DNA of 20,418 bases, taken from IMG/VR virus record IMGVR_UViG_3300021961_000801, positions 1 through 20,418 of that record. The stretch is one strand, 5' to 3'. Below, in pieces: positions 3,294 through 13,895 of the stretch. The DNA is from a virus. The translations under genes were made by a program, and so were the position numbers. Within the stretch, counting starts at the first letter, position 1. Every line of letters starts with the position of its first letter. Below the pieces are notes generated by a model. That model worked only from the letters and a program-made list of their open reading frames with translations. It searched no databases and was not told the DNA's origin.

Positions 3294-3686
3294 ATGTCAG
3301 CAGCAAGTGATTATTTAGAGAATAAAGTCCTAGATCATTTTTTAGGTACTGCCTCTACAACTGCTCCCACTAATGTTTATATCGCATTATTTACTGCTGA
3401 TCCTACTGATGCTAATAGTGGTACTGAAGTATCAACTTCTGGTACTGCTTATGCAAGACAAACAGCTACTTTTAGTGCTGCCTCCAGTGGATCAACTTCA
3501 AATAGTGCTAATATAGAATTTAGTCAAGCAACAGCAAACTACGGAACTGTTACGCACTTCGGAATATACGATGCGTCAACAGCTGGTAATTTATTGTTTC
3601 ATGGTGCTTTAACAAGCTCTAAAACAATAGAAACAGGAGACGTATTTAAAATTGCAACTGGTAACTTAACAATTACAGTAGCATAA
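3294..3686 (+). CDS. Small beta-rich virion protein, tail or connector component
   Basis: This 130-residue protein begins with a helix (SDYLENKVLDHFLG) followed by an all-beta body rich in Ser, Thr and Ala. The segment PTNVYIALFTADPTD (about 24-38) and the later THFGIYDASTAGNLLFHGAL are hallmarks of a widespread small phage protein often labelled tail fibre or minor tail protein. It is most likely a virion subunit at the connector or tail, but its exact place cannot be read from sequence. A strong GGAG site precedes the start. The next gene begins four bases after the stop with no ribosome site of its own, so it probably depends on translation from here. Confidence 0.65.
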   Translation: MSAASDYLENKVLDHFLGTASTTAPTNVYIALFTADPTDANSGTEVSTSGTAYARQTATFSAASSGSTSNSANIEFSQATANYGTVTHFGIYDASTAGNLLFHGALTSSKTIETGDVFKIATGNLTITVA

Positions 3687-3690
3687 TGTT

Positions 3691-4608
3691 ATGGCAGATC
3701 GAACAGGCCCATTTACTCTTGAAGAAATAAACACCCTTTTTGGGTACACATCCTTAGATGCGTTACCTTATTCATTAGATAATAGTATTTGGCAAACTGC
3801 TACCATTTTTGATGGTAGTGCTTCTGCCTCTTCTGTCGCTTCTGCCACAGCATCCCCTTCGGTTATAAAAACTATAACCGAAACTATTAGTGCCGTTGCT
3901 AGTACAACTTGTACTGCGATTGCTGTTTTACTAGGAAGTTCTAGTATTAATGTTGCTGCCTCTGTTTCCATTACCTCTCAAAGAGTAAGAGATGCTGCTG
4001 CTTCTATTAGTAGTATCTTTACAACAAGTATTTTAGCTTATATTGCTATATTAGCTAGGGCTAGTGTTAATGTTGTAGCATCTACCAATATCAGTTTTAT
4101 TAGAATAAGAAACATTACTTTATCTATTTCAAGTGCTGCTTCAGTATCGATTGCTTATGTAAGAATTAGAGATGCTGCATCCAGTATCAGTAGTGCAGTC
4201 ACCACATCATTAGATGTAATTAGACAACGAATAGCAGATTCTTCTGTTAATGTTGTTGTTAGTTTTAGTATTTTAGCAGGTATTGTTGCTTCTGCTTTAG
4301 CTTCTATTAGTTCTGCTGTTACAACTAGTGTTCTAGGAAGTGCTATTTTTCAAATGGCTAGTAAAACTATTAACACTATTTTTAGTGCTACCAATAACGG
4401 AGTCATTAAAGGAGAATACCCTGTCTTAGAAAGTGGTGCAGAAACTTATACAACCTTAACCTCTTCTAATACAGAGACTTACACAGAATTAACATCAAGT
4501 GCTAGTGAAACTTATACAGATCTAACATCTGATGAAACAGAAACATATAGTGATATAATCAGTTCAAACACAGAAACCTATGAGGAATTAAATAATGCCG
4601 TTTATTAA
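3691..4608 (+). CDS. Two-tier tandem-repeat structural protein
   Basis: This 305-residue protein lies between head-tail and nozzle genes and is probably a virion component. Residues 1-43 are a non-repeat head (FTLEEINTLFGYTSLDALPY). Residues 44-223 are nine tandem units of exactly 20 residues, built from Ser, Ala, Val and Ile with occasional Arg, for example SSINVAASVSITSQRVRDAA. Residues 224-250 are a linker. Residues 251-305 are five units of exactly 11 residues, each starting ETY, and the protein ends with the last unit. There is no clear ribosome site, so it likely relies on coupling with the gene four bases upstream. Its last 14 bases overlap the next gene. A fibrous or solenoid fold is likely; I know no function for it. 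Confidence 0.7.
   Translation: MADRTGPFTLEEINTLFGYTSLDALPYSLDNSIWQTATIFDGSASASSVASATASPSVIKTITETISAVASTTCTAIAVLLGSSSINVAASVSITSQRVRDAAASISSIFTTSILAYIAILARASVNVVASTNISFIRIRNITLSISSAASVSIAYVRIRDAASSISSAVTTSLDVIRQRIADSSVNVVVSFSILAGIVASALASISSAVTTSVLGSAIFQMASKTINTIFSATNNGVIKGEYPVLESGAETYTTLTSSNTETYTELTSSASETYTDLTSDETETYSDIISSNTETYEELNNAVY
3820..4359 (+). repeat. Nine 60-bp repeats coding 20-residue units
   Basis: The coding sequence for residues 44-223 repeats with a 60-base period, clear in protein and still partly visible in DNA. The word TTAATGTTG starts at 3947, 4067 and 4247, spaced 120 and 180. The word CTTCTATTAG starts at 4001 and 4301, spaced 300. Units alternate loosely between a SISS-type and a SVNV-type opening. 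No unit is shortened or lengthened, which points to structural constraint on the period. Confidence 0.85.
4441..4605 (+). repeat. Five 33-bp repeats coding 11-residue ETY units
   Basis: ETY occurs at residues 251, 262, 273, 284 and 295 of the repeat protein, an exact period of 11. The consensus is ETYxxLTSSxT. The fifth unit (ETYEELNNAVY) ends exactly at the stop codon, and its DNA also contains the start of the next gene at 4595. The third codon bases differ between units, so the repeats are old or diversified rather than freshly duplicated. Confidence 0.85.
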
Positions 4609-6031
4609 ATTTGGAGAATTATTACCTGACTTACCAGCCTACAGAAATCCTGGTTGTTTACAGGCTAATAATGTTATTTCTTATGGGGATGGGTATAAAC
4701 CTTTTAATACTCTTGCTACCTTTTCTAATGCCCTAACGAATAGAGCACAAGGATTTGCTAACTTGGTGGCTACCGATGGAAGTAGAAAAATATTTGCTGG
4801 TGATGGTTCTAAACTATACCAATTAAGTAATTCTACTTTTAGTGATGTTTCTAAATCAGGTGGATATACTGTATCTCAATTCGACCAATGGAAATTTACA
4901 ATCTTTGGTAACACTGTTATCGCTGCTGCGTTAGGTCAAAACTTACAAAAATTTGTTATTGGTACAGATACTGTCTTTTCAGATTTAACATCTATTCAAG
5001 CAAAGTTCTTAACTGTAGTTAAAGATTTTGTTTTTACAGGATATAATTCTAGTCAATCTCAAAGAGTTCGTTGGTCTGCTTTAAACGATCCAACTGACTG
5101 GTCACCTTCTCAAGCAACTCAAGCTGACTATCAAGACTTAGTAGGAGATCATGGCCCTGTTACTGGAATTAATGGTGGTGAATTTTTAACTGTATTTATG
5201 CAAAGTGCAATCTTTCGAGGAGACTATGTCGGTACTCCTTTGATCTTCCAGTTTACTAAAGTTAATAATACTCATGGTGCTAGTCAACCAGGCAGTATTT
5301 GTAGTTTAGGTCATTTAAGTTATTATCTTTCAGAAGATGGTTTTTACATGTTTGATGGTAGGGTATCAACTCCTATTGGTGCAAACAAAATTAATAAGTA
5401 TTTTTTTGATGATTATAATATTGCTTATGCTGATAGAATTTGTAGTTCTATTGATCCACTAAACAATTTAATTGTGTGGGCTTATGCTTCTAATGAATCG
5501 GATGGTGTGTTAGATAAATTAATTATGTATAACTACACAACTCAACGATGGACTACAGCAGATGTTAATTTGCAAATGTTAGGTCAAGCACAAACACCTG
5601 GATATACTTTAGAGCAAATGGATGATATTGATAGTAGTATTGATAATCAAACAGTTTCTTTTGACTCTCCTCTTTGGGCTGGAGGTAGAATAACCTTCTC
5701 TGCTTTTGACAATAATAAAAAATTAGGTGTGTTTACTGAAGCTCCTAATACTGCTTCTTTTACAACAGGTGAATTAGACATGGAAGGAAGAAGATCTTCT
5801 ATTAGAAATATTCGCCCTATTATTGATGGTGGTACTGTAACAGTTCAAGTAGGTTCAAGAGATAAACAAGGAGGAACTGTTAGTTATGGAAGTACAGTTT
5901 CCTTAACAGCTTCAGGCGATGCTCCTGTTAGAAAGACAGGAAGATATCATCGTTTTAAAACAAACATTACAGGAAGTTTTACTAACTCTTATGGAGTTGA
6001 AGTAGAATTAGTTGCAGAAGGTAAGAGATAA
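4595..6031 (+). CDS. Tail nozzle / DNA stabilisation-like protein
   Basis: This 478-residue protein is largely beta strand, with repeated short hydrophobic strands separated by Gly and Asp turns (GDGSKLYQLSNS, DGFYMFDGRVSTPIGANKIN). This pattern fits the beta-propeller nozzle or packaged-DNA stabilisation proteins (P22 gp10-like) that close the short tail. The N-terminal FGELLPDLPAY with NPGCLQANNVI is typical of that group in my memory. The last 90 residues form a separate beta domain ending VEVELVAEGK. It follows the repeat protein with a 14-base overlap, and GAGGA precedes the ATG. The role is likely; the precise family is inferred from pattern and position. Confidence 0.65.
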   Translation: MPFIKFGELLPDLPAYRNPGCLQANNVISYGDGYKPFNTLATFSNALTNRAQGFANLVATDGSRKIFAGDGSKLYQLSNSTFSDVSKSGGYTVSQFDQWKFTIFGNTVIAAALGQNLQKFVIGTDTVFSDLTSIQAKFLTVVKDFVFTGYNSSQSQRVRWSALNDPTDWSPSQATQADYQDLVGDHGPVTGINGGEFLTVFMQSAIFRGDYVGTPLIFQFTKVNNTHGASQPGSICSLGHLSYYLSEDGFYMFDGRVSTPIGANKINKYFFDDYNIAYADRICSSIDPLNNLIVWAYASNESDGVLDKLIMYNYTTQRWTTADVNLQMLGQAQTPGYTLEQMDDIDSSIDNQTVSFDSPLWAGGRITFSAFDNNKKLGVFTEAPNTASFTTGELDMEGRRSSIRNIRPIIDGGTVTVQVGSRDKQGGTVSYGSTVSLTASGDAPVRKTGRYHRFKTNITGSFTNSYGVEVELVAEGKR

Positions 6032-10922: not shown

Positions 10923-12218
10923 ATGGCTGGAATAAACGAATACGATACTACGGCTGGTAACAACTCTAGTATCAATTCAATCAATATTGCTGAAGGATGT
11001 GCTCCCTCTGGGATCAATAATGCTATCCGACAGTTAATGGCAGATATTCGTTCCCAATGGAATGATGCGAATTGGTTTCAATATGGAGATGGTGCAGGTA
11101 CAGTATCTATTACTTATGCTAGTGCTACCTCCTTTACTGTAGATGGAGTAGACGTATCTTCTGTCTATCATGTTGGTCGAAGAGTAAGAGCTGTTGGATC
11201 TGCAACAGGTACAATCTATGGAACAATCTCTGCGGTAGCTTACGTTACTGACACCACTGTTACAGTTACATGGGATAGTGGTTCACTTAATAACGAGGCT
11301 CTAACAATCTATCTTTCTATTATAGAAGCAACCAATACAGGTATTCCTTCTACTACATTTAACTTCGGAGACAATGACAAGATTCTATTCGGTAATGGTA
11401 ATGACCTAGAAATCTTTCATAATGGAACTACTTCTTTTATAACTAACAATACTAGCCATCTTTATATAAGAACCAATGCTGATGATAGTGACGTTATTAT
11501 TCAGTCAGATGATGGCAGTGGTGGCCTGACTACTTATATACAAGCAGATGGTTCTATTGGAGAAGTAAGACTTTTTTATTATGGTGCTGAAAAATTAAAT
11601 ACCTCATCTACTGGTATTGATGTTACAGGAACAGTTACTGATGATGGTGCAATCCATGATGGAGATGTTACTTTCACAGGTGCTAACTACAACGTATTAT
11701 GGGATAAATCACAAGACCGATTAGAATTTGGAGATAATGCGAAAGCTATCTTTGGTGCTGGTGCAGACTTACAGATTTATCACGATGGAAGTAACTCTTA
11801 CATACAAGACGTTTTAACTGGTGGATTATATATTGACTCTAGTTTATTAACTGTAAGAAATGGTGCTGGTTCAGAAACACAAGCTACTTTCACTCAAAAT
11901 GGTGCAGTAGAACTTTATCACAATAACAGCAAAAAATTAGAAACTACTACTACTGGTATCCTCGTTACAGGTGGTGTTGACATGACTGCAAGTGCAGGAG
12001 ATGTGGGTACATACGCCTTAATGGTAAACTCAGGAAGTACAAGTTCTCATAACTTTGGTGATACTTTGGCAGGATCAAATTTAACCCCATCTCAAACAGG
12101 TGGTGGTACTGGCACAGCAGGAACACAATCAGGAACTTGGAGATGTATGGGTTATACTGGTGCAAACAGTGTTAGTGCGGGTACAGGTAAAACTACATTG
12201 TGGTTTAGAATTTCATAG
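10923..12218 (+). CDS. Tail fibre / receptor-binding protein 1
   Basis: This 431-residue fibre is divided into clear parts. Residues 1-46 are an N-terminal anchor (MAGINEYDTT, then GINNAIRQLMADI) shared with the second fibre gene. Residues about 50-140 are a beta domain. Two related segments follow at about 150-236 and 269-350, each with a DLxIxHxG motif (DLEIFHNGTTSFI and DLQIYHDGSNSYI) and a closing KLxTTxTGIxVTG, typical of beta-rich marine phage fibre shafts. The tip, about 360-431, has a GTWRCMGYTGA segment and ends LWFRIS; it is the likely receptor-binding end. It opens the fibre block after the ejection genes. An AGGAGA site lies unusually far (13 bases) from ATG. Confidence 0.8.
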   Translation: MAGINEYDTTAGNNSSINSINIAEGCAPSGINNAIRQLMADIRSQWNDANWFQYGDGAGTVSITYASATSFTVDGVDVSSVYHVGRRVRAVGSATGTIYGTISAVAYVTDTTVTVTWDSGSLNNEALTIYLSIIEATNTGIPSTTFNFGDNDKILFGNGNDLEIFHNGTTSFITNNTSHLYIRTNADDSDVIIQSDDGSGGLTTYIQADGSIGEVRLFYYGAEKLNTSSTGIDVTGTVTDDGAIHDGDVTFTGANYNVLWDKSQDRLEFGDNAKAIFGAGADLQIYHDGSNSYIQDVLTGGLYIDSSLLTVRNGAGSETQATFTQNGAVELYHNNSKKLETTTTGILVTGGVDMTASAGDVGTYALMVNSGSTSSHNFGDTLAGSNLTPSQTGGGTGTAGTQSGTWRCMGYTGANSVSAGTGKTTLWFRIS

Positions 12219-12455: not shown

Positions 12456-13895
12456 ATGGCGGGTATTAATGACTACTCGAATACACCTAGTTTAAATACA
12501 ACAATCAATACGATTGATGTAGATGAGGGATGTAACCCCGCTAATATTAATGATGCTATTCGTCAACTCATGGCAGATATTGCTGACGTTGATGATGGTG
12601 TTGTTCCTTTACAGACTCCCGATATTAATGGTGGAACAATCGATGGTGCTTCTTTAGGAGCAAGTTCTCCTATTACCTCAGCCACTATCTCTGGCGATCT
12701 CACAGTTGATACAAACACATTATATGTAGATAGCACAAATAATCGTGTGGGTATTGGTACAACAAGTCCAGCCGCTAAATTAAATATTCAAGCAACGGCT
12801 GCTACAAGCGGTGAAGATTTAATTAAATTAATAAATGGTGCTGATGCTGCAGAATTAGTCATTGATACAGGTTCTAATACAGTCAATTTTAATTTAGGTG
12901 CTAGTGATGTTTTAAAAGTTATAGGTGGTAGTGGTGCAAGTGGTTCTACAATCCCATCTCCTGGCACTTTTGTTGTGGAAAATAATAATGAGGCATCAAT
13001 AGCTGTTTTAACACCTGATGCTTATACTTCTTATATTAGACTAGGTCATACTTCTGACCCCAGTGCTTGTAAATGGTCTTTTGACCCATCAACTGATGCT
13101 ATGGAAATTGGCACAACAACTACAAGTGGCTATGTGGGATTTCTTGCAGGTAATGCAACAGAAGCTATTCGTTTAGCTAGTTCTGGTAATGTAGGAATTG
13201 GCGAAACTGCACCTGCTCAAAGAGTACATATAAAAAACACAGGAACAGGTTCTGTTCGTATGAGAATAGAAAATGATGAAGGTTATGGTGAAGTATCTAC
13301 TGATGGGAATGCTATTCAATTAAGAACTCAATCAGGAATTGTTTTTGAATCTTATGACAATGATTATACAGCTATCAGAGATGGTAATGCAGTAGAGCGT
13401 ATGCGAATTGATAGCTCAGGACACGCAATTATTCCTAATGGTGTAACTTTAGGAACGGCTACTGGAACTTATAGTGCAGCTAACACTATAGATGATTATG
13501 AAGAAGGTACTTGGACTCCTAGTTTTCAATTTTCATCAGCACAACCAACAGCAGGTGCTACAACTGGAACTGGATATTATACAAAAGTAGGGAATATGGT
13601 TACAATTTGGGGTGCTGTTACAAATGCCAATGTTACAGGAGCTAGTGGTGATGTTAGAATTAGAGATTTACCTTTTACATCAAAAACAGCTTCAGGTCTA
13701 GCTGGATGGGTGGGTTCTATGAGTGTCAGTAGTATGACATTTACTGGATATGTCAACTGTGATGTTAATCAAGGTTCTAATTATATTAGACCACTTGAAA
13801 ATATAAGTGGTTCTGCAAGAGATATTTTAAATGTAGGAAATTGTACTCATGGTGCAACTGATGTATATTTTTGTGTAAATTATCAAGTTACATAA
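12456..13895 (+). CDS. Tail fibre / receptor-binding protein 2
   Basis: This 479-residue fibre starts with the same docking segment as the first fibre: 26 of the first 42 residues are identical, including EGC and AIRQLMADI. The shaft contains two copies of the VGIGxTxPAxx motif, RVGIGTTSPAAKLNI (about residues 97-111) and NVGIGETAPAQRVHI, common in fibre shafts and in fibres with S74 chaperone tails. The C-terminal 140 residues start with DDYEEGTWTPSFQF and contain GYYTKVGNMVTIWGAV and RDLPF, a known fibre-tip pattern. No S74 Ser-Lys chaperone is recognisable. AAAGGA precedes the ATG. Confidence 0.8.
   Translation: MAGINDYSNTPSLNTTINTIDVDEGCNPANINDAIRQLMADIADVDDGVVPLQTPDINGGTIDGASLGASSPITSATISGDLTVDTNTLYVDSTNNRVGIGTTSPAAKLNIQATAATSGEDLIKLINGADAAELVIDTGSNTVNFNLGASDVLKVIGGSGASGSTIPSPGTFVVENNNEASIAVLTPDAYTSYIRLGHTSDPSACKWSFDPSTDAMEIGTTTTSGYVGFLAGNATEAIRLASSGNVGIGETAPAQRVHIKNTGTGSVRMRIENDEGYGEVSTDGNAIQLRTQSGIVFESYDNDYTAIRDGNAVERMRIDSSGHAIIPNGVTLGTATGTYSAANTIDDYEEGTWTPSFQFSSAQPTAGATTGTGYYTKVGNMVTIWGAVTNANVTGASGDVRIRDLPFTSKTASGLAGWVGSMSVSSMTFTGYVNCDVNQGSNYIRPLENISGSARDILNVGNCTHGATDVYFCVNYQVT

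Follow-up and report, generated by a model that had tools for sequence, protein, structure and literature searches.

What is the function of a phage protein built of two repeat systems with different periods? The question is raised by a gene in the window, i.e. the whole 20,418-nt stretch of DNA from a marine phage analysed here (IMG/VR record IMGVR_UViG_3300021961_000801). Direct homology searches with its product against Pfam, PHROGs, the PDB, and named phages gave no match, and none at the curated threshold. The searches stay empty because the repeat sequence drifts, and relatives were reached through the neighbouring genes. The first-pass annotation proposed a fibre or rod with two structural parts. 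The fibre role stands, whereas the evidence points away from a rod by itself and to a thread working with Gp80, a bead protein encoded just upstream that the annotation had missed; the idea of a two-part rod was dropped once the pairing with Gp80 appeared. With a probability of roughly 0.7, the repeat protein forms the thread ('rope') in a side fibre strung with Gp80 beads at each 20-residue step, the rope-bead contact being presumed.

The gene lies in an operon in the order scaffold, major capsid, two small genes, adaptor, Gp80, repeat gene, and nozzle (Table 1), which bears out the virion placement proposed from the gene's position. The nozzle gene overlaps the repeat gene, its ATG lying 14 nt inside the 3' end. 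Compared with three orthologues, the repeat ORF has a dN/dS of 0.12–0.13 overall, 0.15 in the 20-residue block, and 0.05 in the ETY block. By these ratios, the gene is real and constrained, under strong purifying selection. Further along the window, the products of 10923–12218 and 12456–13895 have similar N-termini (MAGIN..Y...IN.AIRQLMADI) and are probably two tail fibre proteins with a common attachment segment.

Table 1. Coordinates of the repeat gene, its parts, and its neighbours in the window, and of thread genes in other phages (locus followed by position).
Feature	Position	Strand	Details
Head-tail adaptor SU10_adaptor, PF24175	2651..3280	+	Pfam E 2.7e-38
Gp80 bead protein, PF23140 ('Podophage GP4 fiber I protein gp80'), candidate partner	3294..3686	+	Pfam E 5.2e-49
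Repeat protein, candidate rope/thread	3691..4608	+	305 aa; gap from Gp80 stop to ATG 4 nt
N-terminal cap, residues 1–42	3691..3816	+	Motif GPFTLEE...LD.L..SLD..W; common to relatives
Nine 20-residue units, residues 43–222, candidate bead sites	3817..4356	+	Autocorrelation and unit model
Linker, residues 223–250	4357..4440	+	Read directly from sequence
Five 11-residue acidic ETY units, residues 251–305	4441..4605	+	Autocorrelation; most relatives have Trp and a period of 10
Tail nozzle	4595..6031	+	PHROG 3287 E 1.1e-82; PDB nozzle proteins 8zkm/8zkk E 3e-13 to 4e-13
Venkman (Methylophilales phage) gp51	L037 4467-5183		Annotated 'putative E3 ubiquitin-protein ligase HERC6'; period-20 thread and terminal 10-residue Trp block
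Mycobacteriophage Lumos gp22	L149 2739-3956		Period-20 array, then Gly-rich C-terminal domain; directly upstream of Gp80 homologue
Mycobacteriophage Gadjet gp34	L150 2747-3949		Period-20 array, then Gly-rich C-terminal domain; directly upstream of Gp80 homologue
Sporosarcina phage Lietuvens	L050 3903-4826		Thread-like units by eye, before Mu gp48-like baseplate domain
Psychrobacillus phage PVJ1	L051 3902-4927		Thread-like units by eye, Mu gp48-like arrangement; domain itself shown for Lietuvens

Both periods lie far above shuffled controls. In the first block, the autocorrelation peaks at lags 60, 20, and 40 (BLOSUM z 7.0, 6.1, and 6.1; the 99.9% level of the shuffle maximum is 4.4), and in the second block at lags 11, 22, and 33 (z 8.9, 7.3, and 5.7). 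A unit model trained on the repeat protein and its relatives places nine units at a spacing of exactly 20 residues each; its register is arbitrary and differs by one residue from the 44–223 given at first pass. The two repeat systems, nine units of 20 residues and five of 11, are thus confirmed. Their composition is also as described: the first block is rich in Ser, Ala, Ile, and Val with nine Arg, and the acidic second block contains 12 Asp/Glu, six Tyr, and zero Lys/Arg. The five units of the second block are ETYTTLTSSNT, ETYTELTSSAS, ETYTDLTSDET, ETYSDIISSNT, and ETYEELNNAVY.

The repeats had also been called exact, which is true of the period and not of the sequence. The 20-residue units have about a third of their residues in common (27.5% identity at lag 20, 37.5% at lag 60), and only their spacing is exact. 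Tandem Repeats Finder detects no 60-nt DNA repeat behind these units, only a 33-nt repeat with 67% matches, so that a recent DNA-level duplication is rejected as their source. From the divergence of the units together with the lack of a 60-nt repeat, it is reasoned that the array is old. Residues 223–242 of the linker may be a degenerate tenth unit. A separate observation on 3817–4356 is that units are more alike at lag 60 than at lag 20, a hint that blocks of three units were duplicated.

By Pfam, PDB sequence, and fold, the upstream neighbour is the bead protein of fibre I of phage GP4. The Pfam name of PF23140 refers to fibre I of this Ralstonia podophage. Chain 8jou_a of the PDB, from an entry entitled 'Fiber I and fiber-tail-adaptor of phage GP4', is matched by the window Gp80 in phmmer (E 4.1e-18), by the profile of the Gp80 family (E 1e-47), and by the AlphaFold2 model of the window Gp80 in Foldseek (E 1.6e-5); the model also matches 9mt4 (Bas63) and 9c39 (Sf14).

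Fibre I of GP4 reportedly consists of five gp80 dimers joined by an elongated rope protein. Searches of the PDB sequence set, with a single sequence and with a profile, for a chain of the GP4 rope or of the neighbour protein gave no credible match. In IMG/VR contigs whose Gp80 is 97–100% identical to the GP4 chain, a 325-aa protein is encoded directly after Gp80. Its autocorrelation peaks at lags 10, 20, and 40, with about eleven units visible by eye, and its lag-20 z is 5.1 compared with 6.1 for the window protein. The gene after gp80 presumably encodes the GP4 rope.

The main rival to a thread comes from structure prediction, a check proposed at first pass. As a monomer, the repeat protein is modelled by AlphaFold2 (23 sequences) with three short strands per 20-residue unit, forming a beta-solenoid-like coil. 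According to this rival, the units are solenoid coils that stack into a rod both stiff and short (~4.8 Å for each of the nine coils, roughly 4–5 nm in all), which would be a fibre shaft or adhesin located near Gp80 and unthreaded. The alternation of small/hydrophobic and Ser/Thr positions in the units is consistent with such coils, as are the best stretch of the model (pLDDT about 65) and its pTM of 0.48. However, the confidence is low (mean pLDDT 45.6), and the best Foldseek E is 0.09, with no match below it. Moreover, AlphaFold2 is known to yield unrealistic beta-solenoids from repeat sequences (PMC11795689), and for this reason the modelled coil counts for little. A solenoid also leaves unexplained why period-20 proteins keep company with Gp80. 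On balance, it is considered unlikely.

It is the generality of the pairing between Gp80 and the thread that is of interest. A set of 150 loci was gathered via Gp80, the nozzle, and a divergent thread relative, and the 1,514 plus-strand ORFs with a length of 100 aa or more were screened. Period 20 is present in 81 of them, and 81 of 81 come from Gp80-carrying phages, a co-occurrence that is not a blind sample since Gp80 was the basis for selecting most of the loci, with 25 nozzle loci as the only control set selected otherwise. These 25 loci have a related nozzle but lack Gp80, and none contains a period-20 ORF. Gp80 is present in all 12 loci fetched with the divergent thread relative (query L007). 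Despite widely differing sequences, the autocorrelation of the ORF right behind Gp80 peaks at lag 20 (or 40) in locus after locus. Many of the loci are close kin: at 70% identity, their Gp80 proteins fall into 20 clusters, and a period-20 ORF above threshold is present in 12 of these clusters. The ORF above threshold is missing from 45 Gp80 loci; in the cases inspected, the array is irregular, diverged, or possibly past the contig end. The claim that no described family has this plan does not hold, since the 20-residue plan recurs beside Gp80 in many unrelated phages, mostly under a wrong annotation, and the structure of the Gp80-built fibre I of GP4 is published.

Most of the period-20 ORFs (58 of 81) lie within 300 nt downstream of Gp80. 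Another 20 lie 1–3 kb downstream, a frequent position in loci with a different gene right after Gp80 (for example, loci between L117 and L147). Two are found directly upstream of Gp80, in mycobacteriophages Lumos and Gadjet, with gaps of ~30 nt, which suggests that Mycobacterium siphophages may also have a beaded fibre. The remaining one belongs to Venkman, whose Gp80 sits in a neighbouring locus (L059). In Lietuvens and PVJ1, the 20-residue units are seen by eye and the lag-20 signal is weak; the thread-like gene comes right after a Gp80 homologue, which follows baseplate J. In an unrelated observation on Phage C72C1 (L035 2683-3884), the annotation splits the major head protein into two parts separated by three small ORFs on the minus strand, which may reflect an inserted element or an issue with the sequencing.

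This distribution bears on a second rival: a flexible linker of low complexity, or a decoration protein with repeats, whose link to Gp80 is no more than a shared tail operon. A Ser/Ala-rich composition and low pLDDT would be expected of such a protein. Against it, the period is exactly 20 across widely different sequences, the pair is kept even with inverted order or intervening genes and is missing where Gp80 is missing, and dN/dS is 0.12. A mere linker therefore appears improbable.

Over 149 units, the unit model gives a consensus of roughly [SA]-[AG]-S-[IV]-[ST]-[GA]-[TVS]-[AG]-[TS]-[VA]-[ST]-A-D-[GA]-I-R-[IV]-R-x-[GA]. It would correspond roughly to a strand alternating small/hydrophobic residues with Ser/Thr, a turn, and a short strand with Arg. 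The number of units is mostly 6–10: six in many relatives, nine in the window protein, ten in L104, and 9–10 in others. The aromatic block at the C-terminus also varies in length by whole units. For example, the close relatives L076 and L077 (274 and 285 aa) are one 11-residue aromatic unit apart, a natural case of unit gain or loss. A change of length by gain and loss of units, suggested at first pass, is therefore seen in both blocks. The exact periods recur in relatives in part. A spacing of exactly 20 is kept in most family members with the same N-terminal cap, and spacings are mostly 20–23 in the group of L007 and L039; the aromatic block repeats every 10 residues in most relatives and every 11 in the lineage of the window.

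In the alignment of the cap (A5), P7, L10, L29, D30, and W34 are invariant or near-invariant, and the first unit begins at residue 40–44 in most relatives with this cap. In other phages the end parts are replaced, by a Gly-rich domain in the mycobacteriophages, which we take to be of the tail-fibre type, and by a Mu gp48-like domain in Lietuvens and PVJ1. Because of these replacements, both the cap at the N-terminus and the aromatic block at the C-terminus are regarded as probable end modules. A receptor-binding adhesin, in which variable repeats contact the host and Gp80 is the anchor, would fit the mycobacteriophage proteins that run into the Gly-rich domain and the one relative annotated 'serine-rich adhesin', but it is very improbable, as the units are conserved under purifying selection rather than diversified and it is the end domains, not the units, that differ most between phages.

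Based on the observed periods, gene pairing, bead fold, and variation in unit number, a bead-and-thread fibre could be organized in the following way. Gp80 would form dimeric beads, and each 20-residue unit of the thread would be one repeating bead site, for either a Gp80 chain or a dimer. The nine units of the window protein would string a row of beads, and the number of units would set the length of the fibre. Of the two end modules, one would dock on the neck or tail, and the other would carry or seal the distal end. An extended 20-residue stretch measures ~66–70 Å (3.3–3.5 Å per residue), a plausible bead spacing, and nine extended units would give a fibre of ~60 nm, against only 4–5 nm for nine solenoid coils.

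A broader proposal, for and against which the chances seem evenly balanced, is that podophages, siphophages, and myophages have a general fibre plan in common. The pitch of the thread would be exactly 20 residues, with one pitch per Gp80 bead site, and the unit count of the thread would be a genetically written ruler for fibre length that can be read from the sequence. Swapped end modules (aromatic repeats, a Gly-rich domain, or a Mu gp48-like baseplate domain) would anchor or arm the fibre. If the bead-and-thread reading is right, a single role can be given to a large set of phage proteins whose present labels are hypothetical, 'serine-rich adhesin', 'tail protein', or even 'E3 ubiquitin ligase', and counting 20-residue units would predict how long a side fibre is. 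It would also be a simple two-part, length-programmable fibre, which is of interest for protein engineering.

Several known systems resemble the proposed fibre to varying degrees. The neck fibre of Anabaena phage A-1(L), gp82-gp81-gp80, is likewise a flexible bead-chain, with gp81:gp82:gp80 trimers at about 14:1:1 (PMC10966104). It differs in having many copies of gp81 per fibre and no described repeat thread, and its 'gp80' is a distal protein (PMC10966104); it is rejected as an identical system, the proteins being different with only the number gp80 in common. In Alishewanella phage LSH1, gp34-gp36 also form a three-gene structural module, in which gp35 matches GP4 gp80 (8JOU_g). LSH1 differs in being a siphophage, no thread was recognised by its authors, and the C-terminal part of gp34 is poorly predicted.

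Gp80-fold dimers are also found in the whiskers of Shigella phage Sf14 (gp30/gp31) and in the connector of Bas63 (9mt4). In Sf14, the product of the adjacent gene threads through the whiskers (PDB 9c39). The Gp80-fold chain 9c39_K is a 110-aa product, and the 166-aa gp30 is encoded immediately upstream. In contrast to the window fibre, the thread of Sf14 is short, with no 20-residue repeat seen by eye in gp30, each whisker has one dimer, the location is a myophage neck, and the thread gene lies upstream. Sf14 is therefore a structural precedent for threading only.

The closest comparison is with fibre I of GP4. The bead protein is the same in sequence and fold, as are the local order of adaptor, Gp80, and repeat protein and the 20-residue period in the neighbour of Gp80. 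The GP4-type neighbour differs in that it is without the ETY/W block, has another C-terminus, is less regular in unit spacing, and has no detectable similarity to the window thread (no BLASTP match; hhalign probability 0.1%). Because no sequence homology is detected, the window thread is likened to that of GP4 by how it works and not as a proven homologue. The best reading is that the window fibre is a variant of the GP4 kind whose pitch is exact and which has an aromatic block in addition.
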